Positions 2,180-31,084 of a DNA stretch of 64,000 nt are shown here, one piece after another (the stretch's first letter is position 1; each line of letters starts with the position of its first letter). The DNA comes from Streptomyces sp. PCS3-D2 (GTDB lineage Bacteria > Actinomycetota > Actinomycetes > Streptomycetales > Streptomycetaceae): NCBI RefSeq assembly GCF_000612545.2, contig NZ_CP097800.1, positions 3,511,001 through 3,575,000 on the forward strand, in the 5' to 3' direction. The position numbers were made by a program, and so were the translations under genes. The notes below the pieces were generated by a model. The model did no database searches. It saw only the letters and a list, made by a program, of their open reading frames with translations, and was not told the origin of the DNA.

Positions 2180-2253
2180 CGGGGTGTAGCGCAGCTTGGC
2201 AGCGCGCTTCGTTCGGGACGAAGAGGTCGTGGGTTCAAATCCCGCCACCCCGA
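2180..2253 (+). tRNA. tRNA-Pro, anticodon CGG
   Basis: A 74-nt cloverleaf: acceptor stem CGGGGTG/CACCCCG with discriminator A, D-arm stem GCGC/GCGC, anticodon stem CTTCG/CGAAG around the loop TTCGGGA (anticodon CGG, decodes CCG), and T-arm GTGGG/CCCGC around TTCAAAT. The 3' CCA is not encoded. The 3' part from the anticodon loop onward (from 2212) is repeated exactly at 31025, so this gene is the integration site of the island and was rebuilt intact by the insertion. Confidence 0.97.
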
Positions 2254-2271
2254 CTTCGTAAGACCAGGTCA
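2212..2271 (+). repeat. attL: 60-nt direct repeat within and after tRNA-Pro
   Basis: The stretch from the tRNA anticodon loop through 18 bases past the tRNA end is identical to 31025-31084. One mismatch (2272) follows and then 11 more matching bases. This is the core attachment site used by the tyrosine integrase. The crossover itself cannot be placed within the 60 bases from sequence alone. Confidence 0.93.
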
Positions 2272-2674: not shown

Positions 2675-3583
2675 ATGCTGTCGGTGACGTGCAAGATTCG
2701 CCTGTCCGCAGCTGGTGTACACCTGTTCGATCGCGTCTCGGGAGTGAACGTACTGCTCGACGAGATCCTCGTTCCCGCTGCTCAATTCTCCCGGGCTCCC
2801 CGGTACCTGTCCGTCGCGCTGACTAACGCCTGCGAACTCCGCTGCGCCTACTGCTATGCACCCAAGCACGCCGCCGCTCTCGACAGGGAGCGTGTGCTGG
2901 CCTGGGCGATCGAACTGGATGCTGCCGGGTGCCTCGGTGTCGGCTTCGGAGGAGGAGAACCGACCGCGTACAGAAGGTTCGCCCAGCTGTGTTCGGACAT
3001 AGCCCAGTCCACGTCTATGGCGGTGACCTTCACGACTCATGGGCACCGGCTCACACCCGAACTCATCGAATCCCTGCGCGGGGCAGTGCACTTCGTCCGC
3101 CTGTCAGTCGACGGGGTCGGAGCCACCTACGAACGGCTCCGCGGCCGACCGTTCGCGGCCGTGGTCCAGGCGGCCGCGTTGCTCGGCTCCCTTGCCCCGT
3201 TCGGCATCAACGCCGTCATCAATGCCGACACGGTCGACGAACTCGATGACCTCGCCGAGTTCGCCGACAAGGTAGGCGCGTCGGAACTCCTCCTTCTGCC
3301 GGAGCAGCCGACCGCGGCAACTCCCGGCATCAGCGACGCCCACGCTCAGCACCTCGTCGAATGGGCCGCGAGCGCCAAGAACGGGGTTCGGCTCGCGATC
3401 TCCCGAACCGGCCTCGAAGCTGCGCTGCCCACGACGGCGGCCGTCCCAGGCGAGCACCCCCTCGACGCGCACATGCACGTCGACGCGGCCGGCGTCCTGC
3501 GCCCTCACGCCTACGCGCCCACGGGATTGCCAGTCGGAAGTTCCATCATGGAGGCCGTGCAGGCCTTGAGGGAGGCACGATGA
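2675..3583 (+). CDS. Radical SAM protein, first gene of candidate defence cassette
   Basis: A 302-residue protein with the radical SAM iron-sulfur motif C-x3-C-x2-C (Cys53, Cys57, Cys60; CELRCAYC), the downstream GGGEPT motif that contacts SAM, and an LSVDG strand typical of the MoaA/PqqE-like barrel. No Cys-rich SPASM/twitch tail is present, so there is no sign of extra clusters. It does not have the pattern I would expect of prokaryotic viperins. The ATG at 2675 was chosen because the open frame upstream is low quality; GGTGG precedes it. The next gene starts inside its stop codon (ATGA), and the third gene also overlaps, so the three are translationally coupled. The product of the reaction is unknown. 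Confidence 0.8.
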   Translation: MLSVTCKIRLSAAGVHLFDRVSGVNVLLDEILVPAAQFSRAPRYLSVALTNACELRCAYCYAPKHAAALDRERVLAWAIELDAAGCLGVGFGGGEPTAYRRFAQLCSDIAQSTSMAVTFTTHGHRLTPELIESLRGAVHFVRLSVDGVGATYERLRGRPFAAVVQAAALLGSLAPFGINAVINADTVDELDDLAEFADKVGASELLLLPEQPTAATPGISDAHAQHLVEWAASAKNGVRLAISRTGLEAALPTTAAVPGEHPLDAHMHVDAAGVLRPHAYAPTGLPVGSSIMEAVQALREAR

Positions 3584-4014
3584 GGATCTGGAACGGCTAC
3601 GGCTCGGAGCACTCGATGGACCTGGTCTTGATCGGCCGATTTCAGACGGTCACCGGTGCCAAGGCAGCAGAGGAGCGAATGGAGGCTCTGAAGGCTCTTG
3701 CCGAAAACGCGTGGTCCGATGACGACTGGCAGAGCCCAGGCGAGCGCATGCCTCGCGAACTCGGCGAAGCACTTGCCGAAATGAAGGCGTACGACATGGG
3801 GAGGTACGACGTCGACGTCTTCGCCTTTGACCACACTGTCACCCGCACCGGAGAGACGGTCCGGATCTGGACGGACGAGTCCGACGTCCAGGGATTCCTG
3901 AAGGCGCTTCTCCACTACGGTGCGAAAGTCGAGATCTTCTCCCGTCACGAATGGGATGAGGGCGCGATCACTCGGTCGGATGCAAGCACTCGGAGCGACA
4001 GTGGATCTGACTGA
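3580..4014 (+). CDS. Small protein of unknown function between radical SAM and NACHT genes (possibly DUF6375-like)
   Basis: A 144-residue protein starting MRIWNGYGSEHSMDLVLIGRF. The ATG overlaps the stop of the radical SAM gene. The fold is not recognisable from motifs: it looks like a soluble alpha/beta protein, with an acidic helical middle, a beta-rich stretch near residues 75-105, and a polar Ser/Thr/Asp tail of about 15 residues. The opening reminds me of the DUF6375 family, but I could not check this. Its position between a radical SAM enzyme and an NTPase suggests a substrate, adaptor or regulator of the pair. The tail overlaps the beginning of the next gene, so the tail may be under little constraint. 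Confidence 0.65.
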   Translation: MRIWNGYGSEHSMDLVLIGRFQTVTGAKAAEERMEALKALAENAWSDDDWQSPGERMPRELGEALAEMKAYDMGRYDVDVFAFDHTVTRTGETVRIWTDESDVQGFLKALLHYGAKVEIFSRHEWDEGAITRSDASTRSDSGSD

Positions 4015-7000
4015 GCTGGAACGTCTGCCCGGCGCCGCCGACCGGAACTTCGAAGCGCTCACACGGGCCATCGTCTCCCGCCGCTATGGCGCGCTGGGCA
4101 CGATGCGGGAACGCCGCAACCAGCCCGGCGTCGAGTTCTACCTGCACGTCGACCACGCCGGTGCTCTCGGCGACCCCGGCCGCGTCTGGGGTTGGTCGTG
4201 CAAGTGGTTCATCCTCAACAACAGGAATGAGCTCAGCGCAGACCAGCGCAAGCAGATCGAGGACTCGCTCTCTAAGGCTATCGAGCACGTCGTAGGGCTG
4301 ACCGACTTTGTGCTCTGCCTTCCAGAGCGGCCCGCCAAGAAGGACGAGACGTGGATCAACGCACTCGGTCAGCAGGCGGTCCGCGTCAAACTCTGGTCCA
4401 CCGAGAACTACGACGAACAACTCGCGGGACACGACGAGCTCCGCTCCACCTTCTTCGGTGAACTCGCCCTCACCGCAGACGTACTGGCGCAAGCCCACAA
4501 GCGATCTGTTGCACCCATCGAGGCTCGGTGGACGCCACGGCTGCACACCTCCCACCACGTGGAGCATCGCATCGACCGGGCCTTGCTGCGCCCGTCGTCC
4601 TTCGGGTGGCTGCAGGAGCGCACTGACGACATCGCAGCCCGGATCCAGGCACTACGCGGAGCCATCGACGGCCTCGACACCACCTTCCGCCAAAACGCCG
4701 TAGAGATTGCCGACGACCTGGACCGATTCGTCGACGACCTGCGGGAGGTCCTTGACGCTGGAAGGAGTCTCCGGCCCTGGGAGGTCCGCGAGCGCCTCGC
4801 CGGACAGCGACCGCCCGCAACCTCTCCACGAACGCTGCGACGCCTAGTCCTCAAACTGAGGCAGCGTCGCCTACCCGAGGCGCTGCTGGTTACCGGTCTC
4901 GGCGCGGAGATCCGCGACATCGTCCAGTGGCTGCACGACACACGGGCGGACACCGAAGCCCCGCTACTCGCCGTCATCGCCGCCGCAGGACAGGGCAAGA
5001 CGCACCTTGCCGCGCAGATGACCTCACCAAGCGACCAGCCCACGGCAGGAGTCTTCATCCAGGGAGGGAACCTGCGCGCCGGCTGGACCCTCCACGACCT
5101 CGCGCGAAGGATCCCCGGACTCAAGGTCGACTACTTCGAGGACCTGCTGGAAGCTCTCAACTCAGCCGGTCACCGCGCCGGCTGCCGGATTCCGTTGATC
5201 ATCGACGGCCTCAACGAGGCCGAACGGCCCTCGGAGTGGAAGCCACTCCTCGCCGGACTGACACCTGCCCTGGGCGCCTACCCCCACGTGGCGGTGATCG
5301 TCACCCTCCGCGAGGCGCTCGCCGACCAGGCCCTCCCGAAGGACACGGTGCACCTGGAGCTGGAGTGGCAGCGCGCGGAAGTCCAAGACATCCTCCGCGT
5401 CTACTTCCGTCACTACCTGATCAGCCCGGCTGACGCCTGGCTACCGATGGAAGAGTTCCGCAACCCGCTCTTCGTCCGCATGTACTGCGAGGCCGCAAAC
5501 CACGACCGCCGAGTGCCGGTGGGCGTGGAGGCGCTGCCTCAGTCTCTCATCGGTGTCTTCGAGTTGTACCGCAAGGGCGTGGTCGAGCGACTGGCCCAGG
5601 ATCCGGCTCGCATCCCGGTGCCGGCCGACCAGATCCAGCGCCGCCTCACGTCTCTGGCGAGACACATGTGGACACACAACGTCCGTCGGCTTCCGTTCGA
5701 CGAAGCGCGAACAATCCTCGACGCTGACCAGCCGAACTGGGACGAAAGCCTGCTCCGGCGCCTCGTAGAGGAGGGAGTGATCTTCCGCGAGGAGATCAGG
5801 GGTTCAGACGACACTGAGTGCGGATTCGTCTTTGACCGCCTCGCTGGATACTTGATCGCCGACGCGGTTCTGGTGCGCATTCCCCCCGCGGACGTCAGCG
5901 AGCAACTCGCGAAGACAGCTCTTTGGCAGTCCCTCCTGGGCGACCAAGCGCACCCCCTTGGCGAGGACATCGTCATCAGTCTCATCTCACTGCTGCCACG
6001 CCGTTTCACCCGGCACCACCTGTGGCGCGTCGCCCCAGATGAGCACCGTTCGTTGGTGCTCGCCCAGGAACTCACCACCGAGTCGGAATTCCTCGACGAC
6101 GAGACCGTCGACGCGCTCGCAACCGCGCTCGTTACCGCGCATCCCAGCAAGCGGAAGGGCCTACCAGCCTTCAGCCGTCTGTGGGAGATCCGCAGGTCTG
6201 CCCCACACCGCCTGAATGCCGCATTCCTCGACCGCGTCCTACGCCAGCTGCCCCTTCCGGAACGTGACCTGCGCTGGACCGAATGGGCTCGAGGCCAGGC
6301 TCCAGGCCGGCTGACGGCAGACCTGGAACGAGCAATCGTTAGGTGGTCCGGAAACAGCAATCGCGCCGAGACCGACGATCTGGACGCACTGGCCATCGCC
6401 TGGCTACTGACTTCCACGGACACGAGCTTGCGGGACCTGGCGACGAAAGCCCTGCAGCGCTACGGCCGGCCAGAACCCAAACGACTGTTCGACCTCGCCG
6501 CCCGGATGCTCGATATCGATGACCCCTACGTCGTCGAACGGGTGGTCGCCGCAGCGTTCGGCGCCGTCAGCGCCCACCAGATGCCAGATCCCGGTGGACC
6601 GCTCGAAGGCGCGCTGCGAGACTGGCTAGTGCAACTGCGCCGCTTCCTCGACGGCGGGACCACACCTACCTCCCATGAGCAACTGCGCGGCCACGTACGG
6701 GCCACCTATGAACTCGCCGGCGCTCTCCACCCTGCCGCCGTCCCGGACGAGGTCGACGCCTTCGCGCCTAGGTTCGCTGCCGTGGCGCCCGCTGAGGTGA
6801 TGGAGGACGACGACCCCAACGCCGGAGAGTGCGCCCGCACCTTCGGCATGGACTTCGAGAACTACATCATCGGGGCCGCCATCAACGGCAGGAACAACTA
6901 CGACTTCGCCCACCCGGACTACCGCAGGGCCCGCGCCGAGGTCATGGCCCGGGTCTGGGAACTGGGCTGGCGCGAGAAAGAATTCGGCAGCGTTGACCAG

Positions 7001-8005
7001 TCCATCGCTGCGAACGCCGAGCGGCCTTACAGCTCCAAGAGGAGGGTGGAGCGGTACGGCAAGAAGTATGGCTGGATCGCCTACCACGAAATGGTTGGCC
7101 GCCTCGTGGATGTCGGCCGCGCACCGGCCCCCTTCGGCGACGCAGAACGCTTGATGCCCGACATCGACCCGACCTTCCCCGACAGGCCCCCGGTGGCGCC
7201 CATGCCTCTTCCCTTGTGGGCCCCCGTGGAACCGACCGACGACCGGACTTGGCTTGCCTCGGGGACGGTGGATGTCCCAGACCAGCTGTGGTCACCCGAG
7301 GAGATCCACGGAGTGAAGGGCGGCTGGCTCCTAGTTGAGGGGTACTTGGACCACCGTCACGACGGGCGGACTGTGTTCGGGTTCTTCCGGACCCTCCTGC
7401 TGAAGCCGGAAAATGTGGAACCCGCCCAACAGCTCGCCAGCGAGCACGAGTATCCGGGAAACCACTTCTTCCCTCCCCTGCCGATGGTCCGCAACGTGCT
7501 GGCCGCTGAGATGCCGTGGAGCCCCCGGTTCGAGCTGCCCCTCGACGACGACGCCTCAGGCGTCTTCCCGTACCGAGCGCTGCGTCGCGACTGGCAGGAC
7601 GACGGCATCGGGCTCGACCAGATCGCTGTGGAGTTCGCCCCTGACAGCAATTCGGAAATCGGACTCGGCAGAAGCTTTGACGTGCCGTCGTTCGAGTTCG
7701 CTGCCAAGTTCGGTCTGCGCCAACTGCCTGGCACGGTCGACCTCGTAGGCCTGGATGGCCAGCGCGCCTCCGCAGTCCTCCGCGCGGACAAGCCCTGGCG
7801 CGGCCACCTGCTCTTCCTGCGCCGTGACCTTGTCGAGGCCTTCGCTGGTGATCGCCGGATCATGCAGGTGGCGTGGGGCGAGCGCGAGGTGGCCGCCGAC
7901 TGGAGCTCTGTTCCTTCCTGGATTAGCGCGGTGCACCGCAGCTACGCGCATGTATGGCGCCACATCCGAATGCTTGGGGCAGGTCAGCGCAGTGCGGGGA
8001 ACTAA
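4001..8005 (+). CDS. Large NACHT/STAND-type NTPase with N-terminal nuclease-like domain
   Basis: A protein of about 1334 residues. The first 110 residues look like a PD-(D/E)xK nuclease: Glu18 (NFEALT), Glu45 (PGVEFYL) and a W-S-C-K-W strand with Lys68. A helical linker follows, then a P-loop AAAGQGKT (Lys333) and a Walker B strand IIDGLNE (Asp402 to Glu406) and VIVTLRE, which is the NACHT pattern of STAND ATPases. The remaining 900 residues appear to be helical repeats and then a beta-rich C-terminal domain. This order (nuclease, NACHT, sensor repeats) is that of Avs-like antiphage sensors. The GTG at 4001 has GGAG at 3992-3995 at good spacing; an ATG at 3980 is an alternative. It is coupled to the two upstream genes. 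Confidence 0.8.
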   Translation: MDLTELERLPGAADRNFEALTRAIVSRRYGALGTMRERRNQPGVEFYLHVDHAGALGDPGRVWGWSCKWFILNNRNELSADQRKQIEDSLSKAIEHVVGLTDFVLCLPERPAKKDETWINALGQQAVRVKLWSTENYDEQLAGHDELRSTFFGELALTADVLAQAHKRSVAPIEARWTPRLHTSHHVEHRIDRALLRPSSFGWLQERTDDIAARIQALRGAIDGLDTTFRQNAVEIADDLDRFVDDLREVLDAGRSLRPWEVRERLAGQRPPATSPRTLRRLVLKLRQRRLPEALLVTGLGAEIRDIVQWLHDTRADTEAPLLAVIAAAGQGKTHLAAQMTSPSDQPTAGVFIQGGNLRAGWTLHDLARRIPGLKVDYFEDLLEALNSAGHRAGCRIPLIIDGLNEAERPSEWKPLLAGLTPALGAYPHVAVIVTLREALADQALPKDTVHLELEWQRAEVQDILRVYFRHYLISPADAWLPMEEFRNPLFVRMYCEAANHDRRVPVGVEALPQSLIGVFELYRKGVVERLAQDPARIPVPADQIQRRLTSLARHMWTHNVRRLPFDEARTILDADQPNWDESLLRRLVEEGVIFREEIRGSDDTECGFVFDRLAGYLIADAVLVRIPPADVSEQLAKTALWQSLLGDQAHPLGEDIVISLISLLPRRFTRHHLWRVAPDEHRSLVLAQELTTESEFLDDETVDALATALVTAHPSKRKGLPAFSRLWEIRRSAPHRLNAAFLDRVLRQLPLPERDLRWTEWARGQAPGRLTADLERAIVRWSGNSNRAETDDLDALAIAWLLTSTDTSLRDLATKALQRYGRPEPKRLFDLAARMLDIDDPYVVERVVAAAFGAVSAHQMPDPGGPLEGALRDWLVQLRRFLDGGTTPTSHEQLRGHVRATYELAGALHPAAVPDEVDAFAPRFAAVAPAEVMEDDDPNAGECARTFGMDFENYIIGAAINGRNNYDFAHPDYRRARAEVMARVWELGWREKEFGSVDQSIAANAERPYSSKRRVERYGKKYGWIAYHEMVGRLVDVGRAPAPFGDAERLMPDIDPTFPDRPPVAPMPLPLWAPVEPTDDRTWLASGTVDVPDQLWSPEEIHGVKGGWLLVEGYLDHRHDGRTVFGFFRTLLLKPENVEPAQQLASEHEYPGNHFFPPLPMVRNVLAAEMPWSPRFELPLDDDASGVFPYRALRRDWQDDGIGLDQIAVEFAPDSNSEIGLGRSFDVPSFEFAAKFGLRQLPGTVDLVGLDGQRASAVLRADKPWRGHLLFLRRDLVEAFAGDRRIMQVAWGEREVAADWSSVPSWISAVHRSYAHVWRHIRMLGAGQRSAGN

Positions 8006-8316
8006 CGGGTCATGCTGCAGCGGGCGCCGTACCAGTTCGACGGCTGCTGGCGCCGACGCACTAATCAGCGCTCCCGACATGCAGGCGTTCCGCGTACCGC
8101 GGACGGAGGAGTCAGCGACTCATCAGGTCGAGCGGCTGACGAGGGGGAGGTGCTGCCCAGCCTCTGACAAGCGATCCCGACGAGCCGGTGCCCGCTCGTC
8201 AGAAGCTCTGGGGAGAGCGGTCCAGTCGGAAGGTCCGGCGTTTGTCCGATTTCCTGCTCCCAGGGCGGGCTCCTAGGAGAGGATCTGTTTGTAGCCACAC
8301 GAAGGGGCCATCGCGC
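8006..8316. other. Intergenic stretch without a recognised gene
   Basis: About 310 bases between the NACHT gene and the next small gene. Open frames crossing it in several directions have no recognisable motif or ribosome site. It presumably holds the promoter of the following gene; I see no strong hairpin. Confidence 0.5.
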
Positions 8317-8805
8317 ATGATCGACCATTCAGACCGGACCTGCGGACGGCCGACCCGCTCGGGCAGCCCGTGCAAGATCCGGGTGTCAGGTTCGGATGTG
8401 GCATGCGGCACCCACGCCACCGCGCAGGACAAGGCAGTGGCCGAAGCCCATCGCCGTGGCTGGAGCGAAGGCTACCGATCGGGTAGCGAGAGCAGCGCCA
8501 GCCTGTCCAAGTCCCGCATCGAACGGCTGGAGCAACGCGTCAAGGATCTCGAGGAACAACTGGATGGCGCGCACCGTGTCTATGAGGTGGGCGGTCATCA
8601 GGTCGTCGAGGTCGGCAGGTACACGTACCGATGGCGTGGGAGCCGACCCCTCGCGGTGGGAGATCGCGTGCTGCTGCCTGAGAACTACGTAAGCCGGATG
8701 AAGGACGGCCCCGGCCCCACGACAGCCGTGGTGACAAAACTGGGCACCACCTATCGCGGCCCACTGTCCGACATCGTCGGCCGCGCGCCGGCGGCCGAGG
8801 GATAG
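8317..8805 (+). CDS. Small Cys-motif/coiled-coil protein of unknown function
   Basis: A 162-residue protein. The N-terminus contains CGRPTRSGSPCKI followed by C-G-T-H, a short Cys/His pattern seen in small actinobacterial zinc-knuckle-like proteins. Residues around 65-90 form a predicted coiled coil (RIERLEQRVKDLEEQLDG), and the C-terminal third is beta-rich (VLLPENYV and similar), possibly an SH3-like or OB-like fold. The ATG at 8317 has GAAGGGG nine bases upstream. It lies between the defence-like cassette and the convergent integrase gene, with no operon partner. The function is not recognised; it may be a DNA-binding accessory protein of the island. Confidence 0.65.
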   Translation: MIDHSDRTCGRPTRSGSPCKIRVSGSDVACGTHATAQDKAVAEAHRRGWSEGYRSGSESSASLSKSRIERLEQRVKDLEEQLDGAHRVYEVGGHQVVEVGRYTYRWRGSRPLAVGDRVLLPENYVSRMKDGPGPTTAVVTKLGTTYRGPLSDIVGRAPAAEG

Positions 8806-8873
8806 GACGCCTCAGGCCCCGGTCGCCCACCGAGGGGGGACCGGGCCGACGTGGCGCGGTCGGCCCCGCCCGG

Positions 8874-10382
8874 TCAGGGCACGGCCACCAGCAGGCGGTC
8901 GAGAGCAGCGACCGGCGACCTCGGGCTCATCGCTCGACGGGCATCGAGGGACGCCACCCACTGCTCGGTGAGGCCGAGCATGAGGCGCTGGCGCATGCCC
9001 GGGGTGACGTGGGCGTAGCGGGCGGAGACCGAGCCGTCGAGGTGGCCCATGCGCTCGTCCATGAGGACCTTCTCGGTGCCGAGGTCCTCCATCACGGTCC
9101 GGTGGGCGTGGCGCAGGCCGTGGGGAGTGAGTCCCTTGGCTATGGGCAGCCAGCAGGTGTCGGCGCGGCCCTGGGCGTTGCGGCCTCGGACGGGGATGCC
9201 GGGCCAGGGTTCGCCGACGATCGGAACCGGGCGGGCCTCCTGCGGAGCCTTCCTCGGGTACCAACCGTCGGCAGCCGGTCGGAAGAGCCAGGTGGCGAAG
9301 CCGTTGCGGCGCCAGTGGGCGGCCGGGTCGCCGGGGGCCGGCCCGTTGCGAATGAACCCAAGCTCGGCAACGGCGAGTTCGACGCGGACGCGGGTCTCCT
9401 CACGGACTCGGTCCGGGTGGTTGAGGACGTTCGAAACCGTGCCCGTGGAGACCCCGGCGTGACGAGCGACGTCGACGAGCTTCGCACCGTGGTGGCCGCC
9501 TGTGCGGGCGGTGCCGAGCCCGCGGTAGACGTAGGTCCTGCCGTGGCAAGAGCAGGGCTGCGGCTTCGTGCGGGCGATGTGGTCGGCGACCAGGGCGGAC
9601 AGCCCGTCCGGCGTGTCGATGGTCCGGTAGCTGTCGTCCTTCGGTGGGCAGCGCACGAACTCGCCGGTGTCCAGCTCGTACAACTGCCACTCGACGCGCA
9701 CGGAGCCGCGGCGGACGAACTCCGTCTCCAGTCCGACGATCTCGCCCCAGCGCATGCCGGTGTACCCCTTGTGCACCACGGCGACGAACTCGTCGTCACG
9801 GCCGGAGAGCAGGGCAGCCCGCTCAGCGGTCAGCAAGATGCCGAGGGCATCGGTGATGACCTTCTCCGGTCCTCGGTCCCGCGAGCGGCCGGCGCGCTTA
9901 CCTCGGCCGCGGCGCCTGGCCGCCGGGTTGGCCGTGATCAGGCCCTCGTCGATCGCGTCCTCGAAGATCAGGTGGAGGGTCGAGCGCCAGGTCTTGACGC
10001 TGGAGGCGGCGTACGTGGCCTTCTCGCTCTTCTCCCAGGCGTCTACGTCCCTGCGCAGGATTGCGGCGAGTGCCTTGTCCTCGAAGACGGGGAGCAGGTG
10101 CTCCTCGATGTGGCGGCGGTAGTTCTGCATGGTGGAGGCGGCCAGATCCTGGTCGTCGTACCAGCGGCTGGCGTACTCGCCGAACGTCTCCTGTCCGAGC
10201 GACGGGTCGCGCCAGCTGCCACGCCGGACCTTGGCCTCTTCCTCGTCAGCTGCCTGCTTCGCCTCCCGCTTGGTGGCGAACTTGATCACAGTGCCGCTCG
10301 GGTCGGCAACCGTGCCGTACTTACCGTCCTCGATCTTGTAGCGGCCCCGCCAGTAGCCGACGCGCCTTTCGCCGTACCCCAC
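8874..10382 (-). CDS. Tyrosine integrase of the island, with inserted LacI-type HTH
   Basis: A 502-residue tyrosine recombinase. Order: N-terminal arm-binding-like region (1-60), core-binding SAM-like domain (about 65-160), catalytic domain with Arg211 (TGMRWGE), His421-x2-Arg424 (HGLRH), His447 (MGHLDG) and nucleophile Tyr456 (RYAHVT). Between Arg211 and His421 there is an extra block (about residues 299-345, bases 9348-9488) that reads as a LacI-family helix-turn-helix: KLVDVARHAGVSTGTVSNVL. The catalytic residues are all present, so the enzyme should be active. Recombination at tRNA-Pro is inferred from the att repeats. The gene runs toward attL but is separated from it by cargo. The excisionase gene lies just upstream. 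Confidence 0.93.
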   Translation of the reverse strand: MGYGERRVGYWRGRYKIEDGKYGTVADPSGTVIKFATKREAKQAADEEEAKVRRGSWRDPSLGQETFGEYASRWYDDQDLAASTMQNYRRHIEEHLLPVFEDKALAAILRRDVDAWEKSEKATYAASSVKTWRSTLHLIFEDAIDEGLITANPAARRRGRGKRAGRSRDRGPEKVITDALGILLTAERAALLSGRDDEFVAVVHKGYTGMRWGEIVGLETEFVRRGSVRVEWQLYELDTGEFVRCPPKDDSYRTIDTPDGLSALVADHIARTKPQPCSCHGRTYVYRGLGTARTGGHHGAKLVDVARHAGVSTGTVSNVLNHPDRVREETRVRVELAVAELGFIRNGPAPGDPAAHWRRNGFATWLFRPAADGWYPRKAPQEARPVPIVGEPWPGIPVRGRNAQGRADTCWLPIAKGLTPHGLRHAHRTVMEDLGTEKVLMDERMGHLDGSVSARYAHVTPGMRQRLMLGLTEQWVASLDARRAMSPRSPVAALDRLLVAVP

Positions 10383-10429
10383 GGTTCTCCTCTCGCTGTG
10401 ATGGCTGTGTCGTGTGAGTCCCGGAGCGG

Positions 10430-10780
10430 CTACGCGGCGGTGTCGTACTGGGACTTGAGCGCGCGCCGCGGGGGCCGGGCCCTCAATCGCGTGGCGGGCA
10501 CGGTCGGGTCGGGCTTCCGCGGTGCCACGGCGGCCTTCGGTTGCGGGGCCGGATCAGCGGGGCGCCGTGAGGTGGCACGGGCGGGGCGCTCCTCGTGGAG
10601 CCGGACGATGTCGGCGAGGTGGTCTGCGGTGAAGCGGTACGAGCCGCCGACGTACGTGAACGGTATGAGGCGGCGGCGGGCCCGGTCCTTGACCCACCAG
10701 GCCGAGCAGCCGAGAGCGGCAGCGATCTCCTCGGGGCGGAACAGGCGGGGCAGAGCGGGCAGGCTGGCCTCTTGGGGCAA
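10430..10780 (-). CDS. xis: Excisionase-like helix-turn-helix protein
   Basis: A 116-residue protein with an N-terminal winged/MerR-like HTH: FRPEEIAAALGCSAWWVKD, then RLIPFTYVGGSYRFTADHL, the pattern of AlpA/Xis-type proteins. The second half is a basic, Pro/Arg-rich tail. The start is a TTG at 10780, preceded by GAAGGA at suitable spacing. It lies 47 bases upstream of the integrase gene on the same strand, the usual xis-int order of actinomycete integrative elements. Its expected role is to direct the integrase to excision. The gene symbol is by family only. Confidence 0.8.
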   Translation of the reverse strand: MPQEASLPALPRLFRPEEIAAALGCSAWWVKDRARRRLIPFTYVGGSYRFTADHLADIVRLHEERPARATSRRPADPAPQPKAAVAPRKPDPTVPATRLRARPPRRALKSQYDTAA

Positions 10781-10891
10781 AGGTGGTCCTTCTCTGATGT
10801 GTGACGGGATGGGGGCGGTCGCATCGGCGGCGAAGCTTCGGTGTGAACGTCGCCGACTACCTGCGGCATGGGGGTGCGCAGGCGCGGGTCG

Positions 10892-11143
10892 CTACGGGGT
10901 GCCGTGGAGCAGGGCGAGGGGGGAGACGCCGAGGGCAGCGGCGATGGCGACGAGGTCGTCGACGTCGCAACGGCGCCGGCGGCGTTCGATGCGGGAGATG
11001 GTCGTGACGGTCGTGGGGTGACCCAGCGCGGTGGCGCGGGCTGCCAGCTGGCGCTGGGCGACGCCGCGGGCGGTGCGGGCTCGCTCGATGGCGCGGGCAG
11101 CCCGCTTTCCGGCCGGACCGATTTCCAGAGGCGTTGGAGGCAT
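10892..11143 (-). CDS. XRE-family repressor-like protein
   Basis: An 83-residue protein: a short N-terminal tail, then a lambda-repressor-like HTH (ARTARGVAQRQLAARA, then TTVTTISRIERRRRRCDV and LVAIAAALGVSP). The start is the ATG at 11143 (MPPTPLEIG); the longer frame upstream would run through an operator-like palindrome. The gene points toward xis and int, and its promoter region faces the divergent replication/mobilization genes. This places it as the likely switch of the element. The 11162-11188 palindrome sits immediately upstream, which suggests autoregulation. Confidence 0.8.
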   Translation of the reverse strand: MPPTPLEIGPAGKRAARAIERARTARGVAQRQLAARATALGHPTTVTTISRIERRRRRCDVDDLVAIAAALGVSPLALLHGTP

Positions 11144-11161
11144 GGATATTTTGTAACTCCG

Positions 11162-11188
11162 GATCCCCGGTTTCGGTAACCGGGGATC
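11162..11188. promoter_or_regulatory. Palindromic operator upstream of XRE gene
   Basis: A perfect inverted repeat with 11-bp arms (GATCCCCGGTT/AACCGGGGATC) and a 5-base centre. Its half-site AACCGGGGAT occurs a third time at 11444-11453 and in shortened form (CCCGGTTGAC) at 11264-11273. It lies 19 bases upstream of the XRE start codon. Confidence 0.6.
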
Positions 11189-11725
11189 TGCTGCTATATT
11201 CCCCTGCTTTGTTGTCAGGTTCCCTACCCTGCCGCAGAAAATCGCGAAACATAGCACGGGTTTCCCGGTTGACCAAATAACGGATCGTCAGGCCGGTCGC
11301 TTGGTGGACGCGGGAGTGGGGCACGCCTCTGGCCTGCCCAGGGTGTCTGGCAGGTGGCACCGGAGAGCATGCCAGCAGTGCACACCGTCGAAGCGTTACG
11401 GCTTGCCCCAATTCATCCCTGAGATTTCCTACACTATTTCGTCAACCGGGGATTCGGGTCTACCGTTTTTATGCGGACGCAAGGACGTGTTCGCCGCGGG
11501 CTGTTTACCTTCGCGGCGGAATGCTGGACTTGCGCGAACGGATGTGGCTGTCTTGTCCATGCGCCCCGAACGCTGAATCCGGGGCACGGCAAGACCGGCA
11601 TGTCGAGCCCGGGGCTGAGCAGCGCGCGCCTCGTGCCGCAGCCTCACCGTCACCCGCACACTCCCCCTCCCCTCACCCCGAAGCGGGCTGCCCCCTGCCC
11701 GCCCTCACCAAGGAGCCGCCACCCG
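11189..11725. promoter_or_regulatory. Divergent control region between XRE and the replication/mobilization genes
   Basis: No gene is supported here. It holds a CCCGGTTGAC element at 11264-11273 and its exact inverse GTCAACCGGG at 11441-11450, the latter part of the AACCGGGGAT half-site at 11444-11453. This stretch is visibly A/T-richer than its surroundings near 11190-11280 and 11400-11470, as expected for promoters. Confidence 0.5.
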
Positions 11726-12151
11726 ATGAGTCACGACGCCCGCGCATGGGTGTGGGACCACAGCCGCAGCAAGGGCACCGCCCGCCTGATCCTCGTCCTG
11801 ATCGCCGATCGGTGCGTCGATGACCGCTGCATCGCGTACGCCTCGGTCACCGCCCTCATGAAGCGGGCCAACGCCTCCCGCAGCGCCGTCCGGGCCGCCC
11901 TCGACAAGCTGATCGACAGCGGCGAGCTGGTGTGGCTCGACGACCGCCAGGGCCCTCGCGGCGAGAGGTACTACCACCTCCCCGACGCGGCCCGGTTCCT
12001 CGCCAAGCAGGCCCTGGAGGGGGAGCGGATTCCGACCCCCGCAGGGTCGGAATCCGACCCTGCGAAGCCGCTTGAAGGGGGACCGGAATCCGGCCCGGGG
12101 GAGCGGAATCCGACCCGGGAGGGGGCCAGAATCCGACCCCCAGAACAGTAG
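11726..12151 (+). CDS. Helix-turn-helix protein, likely replication/partition-related
   Basis: A 141-residue protein starting MSHDARAWVWDHSRSKGTAR. Residues 1-90 form a winged HTH of the kind found at the N-terminus of plasmid and phage replication proteins: TARLILVLIADRCVDDRC, YASVTALMKRANASRSAVR, LDKLIDSGELVWL. From about residue 95 the chain is low complexity because it is encoded by a DNA repeat array (12026-12139). AAGGAG lies upstream of the ATG. The downstream frame (12162-12548) looks like the missing C-terminal domain, so the two may once have been one gene. It is the first gene of the rightward operon that runs to the relaxase. Confidence 0.75.
   Translation: MSHDARAWVWDHSRSKGTARLILVLIADRCVDDRCIAYASVTALMKRANASRSAVRAALDKLIDSGELVWLDDRQGPRGERYYHLPDAARFLAKQALEGERIPTPAGSESDPAKPLEGGPESGPGERNPTREGARIRPPEQ
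12026..12139 (+). repeat. Five iteron-like direct repeats
   Basis: Five copies of a 13-base unit close to CGGAATCCGACCC start at 12026, 12048, 12084, 12104 and 12127. Spacings of 22, 36, 20 and 23 bases place them in different reading frames of the host gene, so they are conserved as DNA rather than as peptide. This is the pattern expected of iterons or a multi-site operator. Confidence 0.65.
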
Positions 12152-12161
12152 TGAACCAAAG

Positions 12162-12548
12162 GTGAACGGTAGTAAGAGCAGCAGCAACTCTGCACTCATC
12201 CCCGCTACCCAGTGGCACATCGACGACGCCACCCAAGCGTGGCTGCGGCAACAAGGCCACCTCGACAGACTCGGCGAGCACGCCCTACGAGCCGCCGACG
12301 AGAAGTGGCGTACCTACCGGGCCGTCTGGGCACCACGCACCGCCGCAGCCTGGTCCGCCGACTGGCGCGAGTGGATCACCCGCGAACGCACCCCTGCTGC
12401 TGGCCGCCCGTACCTCCGCTCCCTGCCCGGCGGCGGCGCCTCCACCGCTCCTGCGGCGGGAAAGACCCGCGCCGAACAGCACGCCACCGCCCTGCTCAAC
12501 GCCCTCACCGAACTCGAAGCCCGCAACACCCCCACCGGAACGGAGTGA
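12162..12548 (+). CDS. Replication-like C-terminal domain protein, possibly split from upstream gene
   Basis: About 128 residues starting at GTG 12162 (the start is uncertain; the frame is open further upstream through the repeats). The core ATQAWLRQQGHLDRLG, then ADEKWRTYRAVWAPRTAAAW and WREWITRER resembles the tryptophan-rich C-terminal segment found behind HTH domains in plasmid and phage replication proteins. The upstream gene has such an HTH domain but stops at 12151, one frame away. A frameshift in the repeat tract could have split a single ancestral gene. Its end overlaps the next gene start (GTG 12545). Confidence 0.6.
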   Translation: MNGSKSSSNSALIPATQWHIDDATQAWLRQQGHLDRLGEHALRAADEKWRTYRAVWAPRTAAAWSADWREWITRERTPAAGRPYLRSLPGGGASTAPAAGKTRAEQHATALLNALTELEARNTPTGTE

Positions 12549-13297
12549 CCACCCTGGACCGCCGCGAAATCGCCGCCCTGCTCGCCTACATCGGGTGCCT
12601 CGACCCCCGCACCGCCCATACGGACACCGGCACTGCCCTTGACCGGATCGCGCAGTGGCACGAACTCCTGCATGACGTGCCCGCCACGACCGCCCACGGC
12701 TGGGACGCCCGCGAAGCGGTACGGGCCCATATCGTCGCCTCGCCCTATCCGGTCCTGCCTGTGGACGTCGCCCGCAAATGGGGCGCCTACCGCCGCGACC
12801 GCCTGGAGCGGCACACCGACCCCACCCCGGCCGCCGACCCGGACGACCCGGCCGCCTGGCGGTCCGAACTGCTCGGCACCCGGCACGCCGTCGCCGTCGG
12901 CCAGGCAGCGCCGTCCACCCTTCGCCAGCTCACCGCCGGCCCGCACCCCGATCTCGAGGCCCGCCTGCGCTCCGTCGGATCCGTGATCCCTCCGGCGGCA
13001 CGCGCGCAGCTCGCCCGGTACCGGCCCGCCCGCGCCGCCCGCGAAGCCGCCACCGCCGCAGGACAGCCCGACGCCCTCAGCGTCCCGTGCCCCTGGTGCC
13101 ACGCCCACGAAGGCGTGCCCTGCCGCAACCGACGCACCGGCCTCGACGGCGGCGCACGGAGCAACGCCCCACGCGCCATCCCCCACCCATCCCGCGTCGA
13201 CCTCGCCGCCGCATCCCACACCCGGCAAGTGGCTGTACCGCGCCCTGTCACCGTGCCGGGCGGTGCCAGCGCCCGCCGTACGGGCCCCGCTCGCTGA
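12545..13297 (+). CDS. Conserved island protein with C-terminal zinc-knuckle-like motif
   Basis: A 250-residue protein starting at GTG 12545, overlapping the stop of the previous frame (GTGA). The N-terminal 100 residues are helical (REIAALLAYIGCLDPRT and WDAREAVRAHIVASPYP). The C-terminal part has CPWCHAHEGVPCRNRRTG, a C-x2-C...C pattern typical of small zinc knuckles in Streptomyces mobile-element proteins. The function is unknown; the position inside the replication/mobilization operon suggests a DNA-handling role. It is followed by 173 bases without a gene before the membrane protein. Confidence 0.7.
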   Translation: MTTLDRREIAALLAYIGCLDPRTAHTDTGTALDRIAQWHELLHDVPATTAHGWDAREAVRAHIVASPYPVLPVDVARKWGAYRRDRLERHTDPTPAADPDDPAAWRSELLGTRHAVAVGQAAPSTLRQLTAGPHPDLEARLRSVGSVIPPAARAQLARYRPARAAREAATAAGQPDALSVPCPWCHAHEGVPCRNRRTGLDGGARSNAPRAIPHPSRVDLAAASHTRQVAVPRPVTVPGGASARRTGPAR

Positions 13298-13470
13298 ACC
13301 ACTTCTCCACACCTACGGTTCCGCCCGCCGCCTCCGCTCCGCCCGTGCTACCCGCCGCGCCCCTGGCCTCGTAGCTCCGGCCCCCGCAGGCGGCACCCAC
13401 CCACCTCACCGCCTTCACCACACCGCCCGCCCTCGCCCACACAGCGCGGCGGGTCTCTGGAGACCTCTGC

Positions 13471-14763
13471 ATGACACCACTCGCCCTGCCCGCACTCGGG
13501 CAATGGAACGCCACTTCCCTCACCCTCACCGCCTTCGCGCTGGCCTGCTCCGTGCTGCTGATCATGTGGCTGGTCAAGCAGCGCACCCGCCGGACCAGCG
13601 GCAGCCGCAAGCCCGGATCGCCCGCGGTCATCGTGGCCGCGCTGGCCGCGGTCGGCTGCACCGCCTACAGCGCCGACACCAGCTGGCGGTTCGCGGCCCA
13701 CTACCTGGACATGGGCGGCACAGCCGAACGCGCCGCCATGTTCGCCGCCGCGGAGTTCGCCCTGTTCGCCACGGCGCTGCTGGCGCGGCAGAACCTCCAC
13801 GGCCCCAAGCAGGCACCGGGCTTGCCGGGCACCCTGACCTGGGTGATCACCACTGTGCAGGTGATCCCCGCGTACGCCGAGTCCGGCCTGGTCGGCGGCA
13901 CGGTGCGAGCCTTCGTGGGCCCGGTTCTGGCCGCGGCGCTCTGGCACGAGGCCATGGGCATCGAACTGCGTCTCCGTAAGCCGGAAGCCGCGTCCCACAG
14001 CATCCTCGCAAAGATCGGCTGTGAGATACGCGAACGCCTCCTCTCCCGCCTCGGCATCGCCGTACGCGACCGGGACGCTGCACAGATCACCCGCGACCGC
14101 GCCACCCTCAAGGCCGTCGCCCTGGCCACCCGCCTCGCCGAACTCACCCCGGCCAAGCGCAACCGGTGGCGAGGCCGGCGCATCGCACGACGGCTGTCGC
14201 AGGCCGTCGCACAAGCCGCAGTGGGCATCGACGACCGCCAGCGCCAAGACCTGCTGCAGCAGCTCGCCGCCCGCCGTCACGCCACAGCGCTGGCGACCGT
14301 CGACCTGCCTTCGCCCTGGGCCGAACCCAAGCCGGCCGGGAACACCGAACCTCCCGCCGAGCCGGGGCATTCGCACAACCGGTCGGGCGCAAGCCAGAGC
14401 CGAGAAGACGCGGAAGTCCGGGAACACCCTGACCCCGACGTGCGTCCCGAGGGCCCGCCTCCACCATCCGTGCAGCCCCCACTCCCCCTGCACGAAACGG
14501 ATCCCACCGCAGAAGGCGCGGCGCCGTCCCCGGACGGAGGCGGTCCGACGGCACAACGCTACGGTCGCCCTCCCGGAGCTGACATGGATGAACTGCTGGC
14601 CATCTGCCGCCCGGCCGTCGCCCTGCACGGAAGTGTCACCCGCGCCGTCCTGCGGAACGCCGTGCGCGAGGCCGGCCTGCCCATCGCCGAGCACCGCCTC
14701 ACCGAGCTCAAGGCTCTCCTAGGCGCAGAACAAGACGCCGGCACCGGCGCATCCAGCGGCTGA
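13471..14763 (+). CDS. SpdB-like (DUF2637-type) membrane protein
   Basis: A 430-residue protein. Hydrophobic segments at about residues 17-36, 52-66, 85-105 and 120-155 form a four-helix membrane domain with the TAYSADTSWRFAAHY stretch typical of DUF2637 spread proteins. A basic helical region follows, then a long Pro/Glu-rich linker (about 275-365) and a small helical C-terminal domain resembling a winged HTH (AICRPAVALHGSVTRAVLR). In Streptomyces plasmids such proteins assist spread of the element between hyphal compartments. GGAG precedes the ATG at 13471. Its stop codon lies inside a perfect palindrome. Confidence 0.75.
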   Translation: MTPLALPALGQWNATSLTLTAFALACSVLLIMWLVKQRTRRTSGSRKPGSPAVIVAALAAVGCTAYSADTSWRFAAHYLDMGGTAERAAMFAAAEFALFATALLARQNLHGPKQAPGLPGTLTWVITTVQVIPAYAESGLVGGTVRAFVGPVLAAALWHEAMGIELRLRKPEAASHSILAKIGCEIRERLLSRLGIAVRDRDAAQITRDRATLKAVALATRLAELTPAKRNRWRGRRIARRLSQAVAQAAVGIDDRQRQDLLQQLAARRHATALATVDLPSPWAEPKPAGNTEPPAEPGHSHNRSGASQSREDAEVREHPDPDVRPEGPPPPSVQPPLPLHETDPTAEGAAPSPDGGGPTAQRYGRPPGADMDELLAICRPAVALHGSVTRAVLRNAVREAGLPIAEHRLTELKALLGAEQDAGTGASSG

Positions 14764-14833
14764 CCGGATATCCGGTCAGCCGCGGAACGCCGGAATGGGG
14801 GCCTTACGGACCAGCAGCTCGAGCTGGTCCGTA
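14759..14833. repeat. Two perfect palindromes after the SpdB-like gene
   Basis: The first is a 22-base uninterrupted palindrome (14759-14780) that contains the stop codon of the upstream gene. The second has 11-bp arms (14805-14815 and 14823-14833) around 7 bases. Together they could terminate transcription or bind a mobilization protein ahead of mobC. Bases 14834-14963 contain no other feature I can support. Confidence 0.55.
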
Positions 14834-14963: not shown

Positions 14964-15629
14964 ATGTGCCTTCAGCCCGCTCTCACCACCTCCCGCGATC
15001 CGCATCAGGCGACCTCCACCCCAGCCACCGACCGGGCAGCAAGGTATGGCGTTGGACCGTCCAAGGGCCGGTCCAACGCAGCCTCCGCCCCGGGGGTGGC
15101 GGAGGCAGAACCCCGGCGCGAGGGCGCACCGGGGCAGGAGGAGGTGGCCGGTGCGGCCGACGCCGGGCTGCCAGCCGTCGTACGGGCCGCCGACGAGGCC
15201 GCGCTGTACCGCATCGCCCGCCGTCGTGCCCGTGACAGCAAGCAGCGCAAGATGCGCGTCGACGTCCGCTACAGCCTCGCCGAGCACACCGCGATCACCG
15301 CCGAGGCCCGCCGCCTGAATCTGGCCGGCGCACACCTCGTCGGCGCGATCGTCACGGCCTACCTCGCCGACGACCTCACTCTGCCCGGCCAGAGAACCTC
15401 CCACGATGACCTGATCGACGAGCTCGCCGCCCTGCGGTTCCAGGTCTCCGCTATCGGCAAGAACGTCAACCAGATCGCCTTCAAACTGAACTCCGGCGGC
15501 CATCCACACCCTGGGGACAGCGCAGTCCTCGCGGAAGCAGAACGGGTCCTCGGCGTAGCGCGTGTCGCCGCCGCATCGATCGATGCGGCGGCTGCCAAGA
15601 CCGCCACCGCAAAGCGAGCCGCCACATGA
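14964..15629 (+). CDS. mobC: MobC-like mobilization accessory protein
   Basis: A 221-residue protein whose C-terminal half carries the MobC signature: RVDVRYSLAEHTAITAEA, then a ribbon-helix-helix-like stretch, then IGKNVNQIAFKLNSGG. MobC proteins help the relaxase open oriT DNA. AAGGAG precedes the ATG at 14964. The first 75 residues are low complexity and overlap two strong DNA hairpins (15049-15106), so a later start is possible; GTG codons at 15096 and near 15144 are in frame. The stop overlaps the relaxase start (ATGA), so the two genes are coupled. Confidence 0.8.
   Translation: MCLQPALTTSRDPHQATSTPATDRAARYGVGPSKGRSNAASAPGVAEAEPRREGAPGQEEVAGAADAGLPAVVRAADEAALYRIARRRARDSKQRKMRVDVRYSLAEHTAITAEARRLNLAGAHLVGAIVTAYLADDLTLPGQRTSHDDLIDELAALRFQVSAIGKNVNQIAFKLNSGGHPHPGDSAVLAEAERVLGVARVAAASIDAAAAKTATAKRAAT
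15049..15106. promoter_or_regulatory. Two adjacent strong inverted repeats at the mobC 5' end, oriT candidate
   Basis: The first has perfect 11-bp arms (15049-15059 and 15069-15079) around 9 bases. The second has perfect 9-bp arms (15081-15089 and 15098-15106). oriT sites of MobC/relaxase systems usually lie just upstream of or within the start of mobC and contain such repeats. No nic sequence could be recognised. Confidence 0.4.
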
Positions 15630-17296
15630 TTGCGAAGATCGGAACCGGCGCCGACACCCGCGGCGTCCTGAAGTACCTGTACGACACCGTGCGCGCCAAG
15701 GATCACGTTGACCCCCACCTCGTGGCGTCCTTCGACGGCTTCGCCCCCGACCCCGGCCGCAACGAGACCGCCACACTCACCCAGCTCGCCACCGTCCTCG
15801 ACCTGCGCGTCAAGCAGGCTGGTGAAGACGCCCCCGACCAGCACGTGTGGCACTGCTCAGTCAGGGCGGCGCCCGAGGACCGGATCCTGACGGACGACAA
15901 GTGGGCGGTGATCGCCCGCCGGGTCCTGAACGCCACTGGCATCGCCCCCGCCGGCGACCCCGACGCCTGCCGGTGGGTCGCCGTCCGCCACGCCGACGAC
16001 CACATCCACATCGTCGCCACCAAAGTCCGCGGCGACCTCCGCCAACCCCGCAACTGGAACGACTACCCGCGCGCCGACAAGGAGCTCGCCGCCATCGAGA
16101 AGGAATACGGGCTCCGCCAAGTCGTACGCGGCGACCGCACCGCAGCCAAGCGCCCCACCCGCGCCGAGCAGGAGAAGGCCCGCCGCACCGGCCACGCCGT
16201 CACGCCCCGGGAGAGGCTGCGCACCACCGTCCGCACCTCGGTGGCGGCTGCCACCGACACCGAGGAGTTCTTCACCATCCTCCGTGGGGCGGGCGTGCTG
16301 GTGGACATCCAGCGCTTTCCCTCCGGTGACATCCGCGGCTACAAGGTCGCCCTCGACGGAGACACCAATAAGGACGGCGAGCCGGTGTGGTTCTCCGGCT
16401 CCGCCCTGGCCCCGGACCTGTCCTACCCCAAGATCAGCGAACGCCTCGCACACGCCGGGCCCGCCGCCACGGATGCTCCCTCCGGCCGTCGGCGTGCGGC
16501 CTGGCAGCAGCTCACCGACGCGGCCACCCGTATCCCCGACATTCTCGACCAAGCCGACGACGCCGCCGCGCAGGCACACATCGCCGTCCTCGCCGAGACC
16601 CTCGACGCACTCCCCCTCATCGCCCCCACCGACTACAAGCCCCAGCTGGCCCAGGCGTCCGCAGCCTTCGAGCGGGCCAGCCGCTCCCGGATCCACACCC
16701 GCCACCAGCAGGCCGAGTCCACACGCCGAGCGATCAAGGCGATCGTTCGTGAACCCGCACCGAAGGACGGGGCCCTCCTCGTGTTCCTCCTCGACGCCCT
16801 CCTCCTGGCCGTCATCGCAGCACAGCACTGGCACCGCACCCGCCACCACGACCAGCAAGCCGAAGCCGCCCGCCAGACAGCCGAGCACCTGCGCGCCGCC
16901 TACCAGGCCCAGCCCCTGACCGCTATCCACGAGCGCGGCCTCCGCCTCGCCGTCTCGGTTGCTCAGCAGCAGGCCGTCATCGTTCGCCAAGCACTACCGG
17001 ACCTGGCCGGGCAGATCGTCGCCGAGCCCGGCTGGCCGGCCCTCGCCGCCACCCTCGCTGACGCACAGACCGCAGGCCTCGACCCCACGCCCCTCCTCGC
17101 CCAAGCCGCCCGCCACCGCGAACTCGACACCGCCACCTCGATCAGCGGCGTCCTTACATGGCGGCTGCACCGCCTGATCGGCATGGCAGGTGAAGGGCCT
17201 ACTCGCCCCGACTCCGCAAGCACCGTCCGCCCGGGCTCGAGCACAGCCGTCCTTGGTGACTCCCGACGGCCGGGATCCCGACGAAGCGGCCGGTAG
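15626..17296 (+). CDS. Relaxase (MobA-like mobilization protein)
   Basis: A 556-residue protein. The N-terminal relaxase domain has candidate tyrosines near residues 17-19 (LKYLYD) and the metal-binding three-histidine motif in RHADDHIHIVATK (His122, His126, His128). Family knowledge: it nicks oriT and attaches to the 5' end for transfer. Residues 195-290 follow the conserved accessory part (VTPRERLRTTVRTSV, GVLVDIQRFPSGDIRGYKVA). Around 380-400 there is a hydrophobic stretch (LLVFLLDALLLAVIAAQHW) that could touch the membrane. The tail is Arg/Ser-rich. It overlaps mobC by four bases and is followed after 31 bases by the palindrome array. Confidence 0.85.
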   Translation: MIAKIGTGADTRGVLKYLYDTVRAKDHVDPHLVASFDGFAPDPGRNETATLTQLATVLDLRVKQAGEDAPDQHVWHCSVRAAPEDRILTDDKWAVIARRVLNATGIAPAGDPDACRWVAVRHADDHIHIVATKVRGDLRQPRNWNDYPRADKELAAIEKEYGLRQVVRGDRTAAKRPTRAEQEKARRTGHAVTPRERLRTTVRTSVAAATDTEEFFTILRGAGVLVDIQRFPSGDIRGYKVALDGDTNKDGEPVWFSGSALAPDLSYPKISERLAHAGPAATDAPSGRRRAAWQQLTDAATRIPDILDQADDAAAQAHIAVLAETLDALPLIAPTDYKPQLAQASAAFERASRSRIHTRHQQAESTRRAIKAIVREPAPKDGALLVFLLDALLLAVIAAQHWHRTRHHDQQAEAARQTAEHLRAAYQAQPLTAIHERGLRLAVSVAQQQAVIVRQALPDLAGQIVAEPGWPALAATLADAQTAGLDPTPLLAQAARHRELDTATSISGVLTWRLHRLIGMAGEGPTRPDSASTVRPGSSTAVLGDSRRPGSRRSGR

Positions 17297-17327
17297 CCGG
17301 AAACCCACCAGCATTGCCGACCGGCAC

Positions 17328-17543: not shown

Positions 17544-17567
17544 AAGTTGGTTGATCGCCTGCTGCGG

Positions 17568-29760: not shown

Positions 29761-29763
29761 CCT

Positions 29764-31024: not shown

Positions 31025-31084
31025 TTCGGGACGAAGAGGTCGTGGGTTCAAATCCCGCCACCCCGACTTCGTAAGACCAGGTCA
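31025..31084 (+). repeat. attR: 60-nt copy of tRNA-Pro 3' end
   Basis: Identical to 2212-2271. It holds the anticodon loop, T-arm and 3' acceptor strand of tRNA-Pro but no 5' half: the bases upstream (from 31024) do not pair as a D-arm or acceptor strand. It is therefore an att remnant, not a functional tRNA. Confidence 0.93.

Follow-up and report, generated by a model that had tools for sequence, protein, structure and literature searches.

A radical SAM enzyme and a DUF6375 protein linked to an Avs2-like STAND protein in Streptomyces and across 14 phyla

Most descriptions of Avs-type immune sensors present a single protein that directly recognises a phage protein. The window analysed here, a stretch of 64,000 nucleotides from Streptomyces sp. 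PCS3-D2 (contig NZ_CP097800.1, positions 3,511,001 to 3,575,000 of the forward strand), raises the question of why such a sensor should be encoded together with a radical S-adenosylmethionine (SAM) enzyme and a small protein of 144 residues, and whether the three act as one system. They had been recognised from the letters of the window, in what is called here the original prediction, as three overlapping genes of one coupled operon, and the coordinates are confirmed, with overlaps of 4 bases between the radical SAM gene and the small gene and of 14 bases between the small gene and the large one. The small protein is a member of the family DUF6375 (PF19902; E 5.5e-58, 195.7 bits against a gathering threshold of 27.5). 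The three genes, named below the cassette, are one conserved unit, the new part of which is the partner pair of radical SAM enzyme and DUF6375 protein, the Avs2-like sensor itself being of a known type.

Linkage and joint divergence of the three genes

In the same-genus sample of 296 genomes, the large protein was matched at E<=1e-20 in 14, nine of which hold close homologues with 36-100% identity (one aligned only to residue 1176 and one split in two pieces). DUF6375 was found in exactly these nine genomes, and the radical SAM orthologues, with 50-100% identity, in exactly the same nine; at E<=1e-12 the radical SAM enzyme was matched in 44 genomes, the next best match beyond the orthologues being 36% identical over 175 residues. 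In all eight other genomes of the nine, the genes lie next to one another. The original prediction had proposed to count the co-occurrence in other Streptomyces; in the same-genus sample it is 9/296 genomes. Five genomes of the order sample (312 genomes, E<=1e-60), including the window's own, carry a large-protein homologue and all five carry both partners, one of the large genes having an in-frame stop and another being internally deleted. Among the 396 genomes of the phylum sample, DUF6375 scored above the cut-off in one, the window's own, and the large-protein profile matched at E<=1e-20 in five, G483 among them.

A wider scan was made on contigs from one genome per species; it confirmed 99 relatives of DUF6375, of which the 80 best were kept. 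These loci were retrieved with the peptide pattern G[ST]EHS[MA][ND]LV, corresponding to DUF6375 residues 8-16, which would miss diverged members such as that of the viral contig L151 described below; they include at least one genome twice (L057, L058), and several of them repeat regions of the genomes numbered with G (for example, L048 and L028). The radical SAM gene lies upstream in 79/80 and the Avs2-like gene downstream in 79/80, the misses (L097, L091) being contig ends. The 80 loci span 14 phyla, with one locus having no phylum assignment, and plasmids of Deinococcota come in addition. Chance neighbourhood of the genes is excluded by these counts, by the identical nine genomes of the genus, and by the linkage over 14 phyla and the Deinococcota plasmids.

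On plasmids, DUF6375 and the radical SAM enzyme match the same 16 of 72,556 records, 12 of which belong to one Vibrio lineage and have identical identity values. The large protein matches 21 records, 15 of them shared with these 16, and its remaining six are weak relatives or a fragment. The 16th record is a plasmid of Deinococcus peraridilitoris (L046:11198-13519), in which the radical SAM and DUF6375 genes are kept, an IS3 transposase follows directly after DUF6375, and no Avs2-like match was found in the stretch. The neighbourhoods of 6 of the 16 records were examined, and defence-type genes lie near the plasmid copies: in Vibrio these are BREX genes and genes for a SIR2 protein and for NYN proteins, in Picosynechococcus a DUF1156 gene and helicase genes. 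The phage collection yielded no DUF6375.

The stop of the radical SAM gene and the start of DUF6375 overlap by 4 bases in 60/79 loci, with a gap of <=30 bases in 74/79, and the median spacing from DUF6375 to the Avs2-like gene is 13 bases, some of the larger intergenic gaps being due to broken or mis-called frames (for example, L060, L070, L080). The pairwise distances of the three proteins correlate with r of 0.90-0.95 in 59 loci that have all three frames of the expected length and were selected via DUF6375, and with r of 0.89-0.94 in 43 distant loci. The ratios of nonsynonymous to synonymous substitution rates against six relatives were 0.14-0.22 for the radical SAM gene, 0.07-0.32 for DUF6375 and 0.18-0.24 for the Avs2-like gene; all three genes are under purifying selection. 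In the tree of the large proteins with midpoint rooting, those borne by cassettes form one clade (66 rows, support 0.948), to which the protein of the genome G483 is sister, with the other 11 rows further away. Since the rows of the tree, like the loci of the distance comparison, were selected via DUF6375, the tree indicates the common origin of the sampled copies, and neither analysis bears on the absence of the pair elsewhere. That was assessed with the same-genus, phylum and order samples and with three further relatives; among the latter, L148 has the pair, L149 starts where its contig does, and no partner is seen in L150 (25% identity).

Properties of the three proteins

All six PADLOC models matching the large protein are Avs2 models, the best being PDLC02164 (380 bits, E 6.5e-114; the tool shows no cut-off). 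The NCBIfam Avs2 equivalog NF041813 gives 260.8 bits, below its curated cut-off of 1000, and the protein is therefore called here Avs2-like and not assigned to that equivalog; a Pfam scan of it returned no match above cut-off. A profile of 39 homologues aligned with the solved Avs2 (PDB 9o4e) over its profile positions 160-966 and 977-1312 of 1348, the N-terminus of 9o4e lying outside the alignment. The N-terminal ~115 residues match Avs4 instead (PDB 8dgf; E 9.8e-5 for the chain, 6.6e-4 for the stretch), with the motifs FE, GvE and GWQxK in register and with E18, E45 and K68 aligned, and the PADLOC Avs4 model matches the N-termini of 19/39 homologues. The Pfam scan of the 39 N-termini for a nuclease family gave nothing useful, and the nuclease reading stands because of the homology to the Avs4 domain, which we take to be an Mrr-type nuclease. 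The layout is thus a putative Mrr-type nuclease at ~1-115, a NACHT module with G330-K333 and D402-E406, and a sensor-like C-terminal region at ~600-1334, the limits of this last region being drawn by eye.

In the alignment of 66 rows (the window and 65 of the 80 loci, picked for length, with a few near-duplicates) E18, E45, the Walker A lysine K333, D402, E406 and R437 are invariant, and residue 68 is K in 56 rows and R in 10. Walker A and B of the STAND/NACHT core are hence intact, and the N-terminal effector is, by homology, of a known Avs type. The large protein is, from these sequence comparisons, an Avs2-like STAND/NACHT NTPase with an Avs4-like putative nuclease domain. The original prediction, which had seen a nuclease-like N-terminus with Glu18, Glu45 and Lys68, a P-loop at Lys333 and an Avs-type identity, is borne out in each of these points and sharpened to an Avs2-like body, an Avs4-like nuclease and a DUF6375 partner. 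No clade-specific patch able to bind DUF6375 was found in the large protein, as the 94 conserved columns absent from the outgroup are spread along its whole length. Two of the large genes (L065:10422-13029 and L122:10434-12531) are internally deleted, at residues ~402-867 and ~528-1155, respectively, with both ends kept and with radical SAM and DUF6375 genes of normal length; the deletion in G688 (L155) is identical to that of L065, possibly the same genome.

The radical SAM protein belongs to its superfamily (PF04055, E 1.4e-17, 64.8 bits against a cut-off of 29.5), and Cys53, Cys57 and Cys60, which the original prediction had named, are invariant in 51/51 rows (the window and 50 of the 80 loci). 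The best PDB sequence match of its profile is SkfB (4.7e-17). With the structural model, of a mean predicted local distance difference test (pLDDT) score of 92.9, Foldseek ordered SkfB and SuiB first by E-value (1.5e-15), including SuiB with a bound precursor peptide, followed by viperins and MoaA. The best NCBIfam matches include MoaA (57.7 bits against a cut-off of 284) and viperin (NF038283, 48.6 bits against a curated cut-off of 180), so that the protein falls outside the viperin family as curated.

The model of the DUF6375 protein, built with 56 sequences, has a mean pLDDT of 80.6, with ~52 on average for residues 1-10, and its strand-helix order is ferredoxin-like with two extra helices. 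Foldseek returned no match for it at E<=0.001, the top matches being designed ferredoxin-fold proteins and the very weak ones including PstA and CutA1, and among PDB sequences there was no match below E 0.67. The N-terminal tail has the consensus M-K-I-W-x-x-Y-G-S-E-H-S. Its invariance among the 80 loci is partly by construction, because the retrieval pattern covers residues 8-16; accordingly, the tail statistic was taken from 19 rows obtained independently of the pattern, by the Pfam profile, tblastn and the large-protein profile. M1, W4, G8, E10, H11 and S12 are invariant in these rows, hence 6/12 residues of the tail compared with 9/118 in the part that follows (p 5e-4), or 5/11 with Met1 excluded (p 0.002); in redundancy-reduced rows (<=60% alike, 8 rows) the figures are 5/11 against 10/118 (p 0.003). 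Conserved residues that lie at the fold's edge, in a protein encoded beside a radical SAM enzyme, resemble a substrate segment, and they could equally be a binding peptide.

Possible joint action and competing explanations

The best explanation of the whole, which we hold tentatively and with slightly less than even confidence, is that of one three-gene immune system, in which the radical SAM enzyme acts on DUF6375 and the modified protein works with the Avs2-like protein. The Avs2-like STAND protein, like Avs1-Avs4, would sense a protein of the phage, probably one that belongs to the DNA-packaging machinery, and on sensing would assemble with ATP, upon which the putative Mrr-type nuclease domain would destroy DNA and abort the infection; sensing, ATP-driven assembly and cleavage are expected here by analogy with the Avs family. 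The radical SAM enzyme would act on DUF6375, most likely on its conserved N-terminal tail, and the modified DUF6375 may serve the Avs2-like protein as a licensing factor, an adaptor or a guard, as the anatomy of the cassette would suggest. An enzyme-substrate relation is favoured by the presence of DUF6375 beside the radical SAM gene wherever the contig extends that far, by the conserved N-terminal residues at low pLDDT, and by the first place of SkfB and SuiB by E-value.

A more specific form of this explanation, possible though clearly more doubtful, is that an NLR-like (nucleotide-binding, leucine-rich-repeat-like) sensor reads the radical-modified DUF6375 tail as a guarded partner or co-receptor, the enzyme/substrate pair being portable to other effectors. 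The portability refers to the IMG/VR contig L151, obtained with a pattern over DUF6375 residues 1-9, where a diverged DUF6375-radical SAM pair (L151:6886-15344, plus strand) lies between a DUF2971 gene and type III restriction/methylase genes. There DUF6375 scores 45.7 bits, above the cut-off, and precedes the radical SAM gene, whose product is 35% identical to that of the window; the DUF2971 gene weakly matches the PADLOC candidate PDC-S31, and no Avs2-like match was found in 16 of the 31.7 kb. L151 gave the only other context for the pair in viral contigs, and from this single case the pair would seem to be a portable module.

Several observations weigh against the explanation by a modified tail. 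The boundary of the tail at residue 12 was chosen after the data were seen, and the next DUF6375 strand (L15, V16, G19, F21) is equally conserved, so that the conserved N-terminal stretch may be structural; the low pLDDT of residues 1-10 does not prove a flexible tail, and the L151 member reads MRIWRSYGSGHS, with the otherwise invariant E10 replaced by G. In some copies of the cassette one of the three genes is broken (for example, L066, L080, L087). The nearest sister found of the large protein, that of G483 (703 bits), has no radical SAM-DUF6375 pair in 19 kb, and in five other same-genus genomes, where Avs2 relatives occupy open frames of 1488-1722 residues, neither radical SAM nor DUF6375 was matched in 14.8-16 kb; the architecture can therefore exist without the pair. 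On the side of the enzyme, the radical SAM protein of the window has no cysteine after residue 106 and therefore lacks a SPASM/twitch auxiliary cluster, and viperins fit its model with a lower root-mean-square deviation (3.0-4.7) than SkfB and SuiB do (5.5-6.7) and with higher target-normalised template-modelling scores (0.59-0.73 against 0.50-0.57). Its best match in the PADLOC defence library is pVip, with 57.5 bits. The enzyme is about equally like the maturases of ribosomally synthesised and post-translationally modified peptides (RiPPs) and the viperins. The predicted ferredoxin-like fold of DUF6375 also suits a small-molecule-binding protein.

These features of the enzyme and of the fold, with MoaA and viperin among the best NCBIfam matches and with the very weak PstA and CutA1 matches, speak for the main rival, namely that a small molecule, such as a modified nucleotide (compare viperin and MoaA), is the product of the enzyme, and that DUF6375 is its carrier, subunit or receptor, the ligand-bound form of which gates the Avs2-like protein. 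We hold it clearly less likely than the modified tail. Against it, the viperin and MoaA scores are far under the curated cut-offs, DUF6375 has no significant fold match, and its most conserved stretch is the N-terminus and not a visible pocket. The pair might also be a module of its own, antiviral or self-protecting, that accompanies the Avs2-like gene with no gating of it, in agreement with the arrangement in L151 and with the other Avs2 relatives that occur without the pair; however, one would expect to meet a free module in many settings, whereas 79/80 loci hold the pair in a tight operon with one Avs2-like clade and the proteins diverge in step, which makes this explanation improbable. The least probable by far is that the cassette is not for defence, or is hitch-hiking cargo with no joint function: it does lie on a mobile island, but the homology to Avs2 and Avs4, the linkage in 14 phyla, the purifying selection on all three genes and the defence-type neighbours on the Vibrio and Picosynechococcus plasmids all speak against this.

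The supposition that every Avs2 has the pair was ruled out by the five same-genus relatives and the G483 sister. As to the regular occurrence of large-protein homologues without the other two genes, which the original prediction had raised, it is not found in the close clade (both partners in 9/9 same-genus and 5/5 order-sample genomes) and is found for distant Avs2 relatives (the five same-genus genomes and G483). In G483 (L133, reverse-complement coordinates 5489-18568), the sister gene is followed by two very large frames of 1247 and 1438 residues in which P-loop-like motifs were recognised by eye; the genes may form an array that encodes STAND-like proteins.

The island and the place of the cassette among known systems

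The cassette had been predicted to be cargo at the left end of an island, and it lies inside attL of a 28.8-kb integrated island, as its first cargo, starting 421 bp 3' of the tRNA-Pro(CGG) gene into which the island is inserted between 60-bp exact repeats (Table 1). The 26-bp core of the repeats has just 2 copies genome-wide with <=2 mismatches allowed. A tRNA-Pro(CGG) gene lies 0.4-2 kb upstream of the cassette in 3/88 related loci scanned for tRNAs (L028, L048, L049, the first two being one region).

Table 1. Position of the cassette genes and of the island features in the window
Feature	Position	Strand	Remarks
Radical SAM enzyme	2675..3583	+	302 aa; PF04055; CxxxCxxC at Cys53/57/60
DUF6375 (PF19902) protein	3580..4014	+	144 aa; N-terminal tail MRIWNGYGSEHS, then predicted ferredoxin-like domain
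Avs2-like STAND/NACHT protein	4001..8005	+	1334 aa; GTG start; PADLOC, profile against 9o4e and 8dgf
tRNA-Pro(CGG), integration site of the island	2180..2254	+	
attL	2212..2271	+	Exact 60-bp direct repeat
attR	31025..31084	+	Exact 60-bp direct repeat
Island integrase	8874..10382	-	Tyrosine-recombinase-type; internal LacI-type helix-turn-helix match
Island relaxase	15626..17296	+	MobA/VirD2-type

The strong LacI-type helix-turn-helix match of the integrase (residues 302-346, 59.5 bits) lies between the core-binding and catalytic matches. Other cargo includes two glycosyltransferase genes and an APH-type phosphotransferase gene (PF01636, 98.8 bits), at 20522-21382 (+), 24516-25595 (+) and 25592-26650 (-). 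The right end of the island at 27115-30531 (+), a lower-GC stretch, holds open frames of 881 and 255 residues that have no Pfam match above cut-off and no PADLOC match at E<=0.01 and are possibly further cargo.

Compared with Avs2 (AVAST type II; the PADLOC models, NF041813 and 9o4e), the large protein aligns over the NACHT/STAND core and over the greater part of the C-terminal body, but it scores below the 1000-bit cut-off, belongs to a separate clade and is encoded with the radical SAM enzyme and DUF6375, and its profile leaves the N-terminus of 9o4e unmatched. The likeness to Avs4 (8dgf) is confined to the effector domain of ~115 residues, the rest being Avs2-like. The RiPP maturases SkfB and SuiB take the first places when the cassette enzyme is compared with PDB sequences (SkfB) and by Foldseek E-value (both); unlike them, it is a protein of 302 residues with no auxiliary-cluster cysteines, and its partner has 144 residues and a predicted fold, in contrast to a short precursor peptide. 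With prokaryotic viperins (pVip) it has in common the radical SAM core, an overall fold that fits with a lower root-mean-square deviation than that of the maturases, and an antiviral context, but it scores under their cut-off and is encoded with DUF6375.

Avs1-Avs4 are stated, in a passage of PMC12931631, to sense terminase or portal proteins, after which the nuclease Avs proteins cleave DNA. The Avs1a/Avs1b nuclease-protease pairs were acquired by AVAST, Hachiman and other systems, the protease activating a pro-nuclease, according to an excerpt of PMC12799240; as described there, they resemble the cassette in that two genes, for an enzyme and its substrate, are coupled as a module to an Avs-type sensor and recur in other systems, but they consist of a protease and a pro-nuclease in place of a radical SAM enzyme and DUF6375. 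For the FtsH ternary conflict systems, which are nucleoside triphosphate-dependent, a passage of PMC7159879 proposes that a radical SAM domain modifies a peptide from another gene; these systems differ from the cassette in having vWA-MoxR/FtsH and not Avs, and DUF6375 is absent from that passage.

The original prediction knew of no system with a radical SAM enzyme, a small partner and a nuclease-NACHT protein in one operon, and no description of one was found among 5.39 million open-access papers. DUF6375 was not found there (supplementary files and the two founding AVAST papers being outside the scope), there was no co-mention of Avs2 and radical SAM, and radical SAM and AVAST came together in one paper only, in unrelated sentences. 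None of the titles and abstracts among the matches listed concerned an Avs system partnered by a radical SAM enzyme; the main text of PMC13092281 contains neither 'radical' nor DUF6375, and the excerpt of PMC10853773 is unrelated to such a pairing. PADLOC 2.0.0 has no model matching DUF6375 and registers the radical SAM enzyme just as a weak viperin; such catalogues would therefore record the large gene alone.

The tight linkage across many phyla points to an immune sensor in need of a partner that a radical SAM enzyme makes or modifies. If true, bacterial NLR-type immunity would gain a licensing or guard step in a clade distributed over 14 phyla, radical SAM chemistry would have a role in defence other than that of viperin, and the orphan family DUF6375 would receive a first function.

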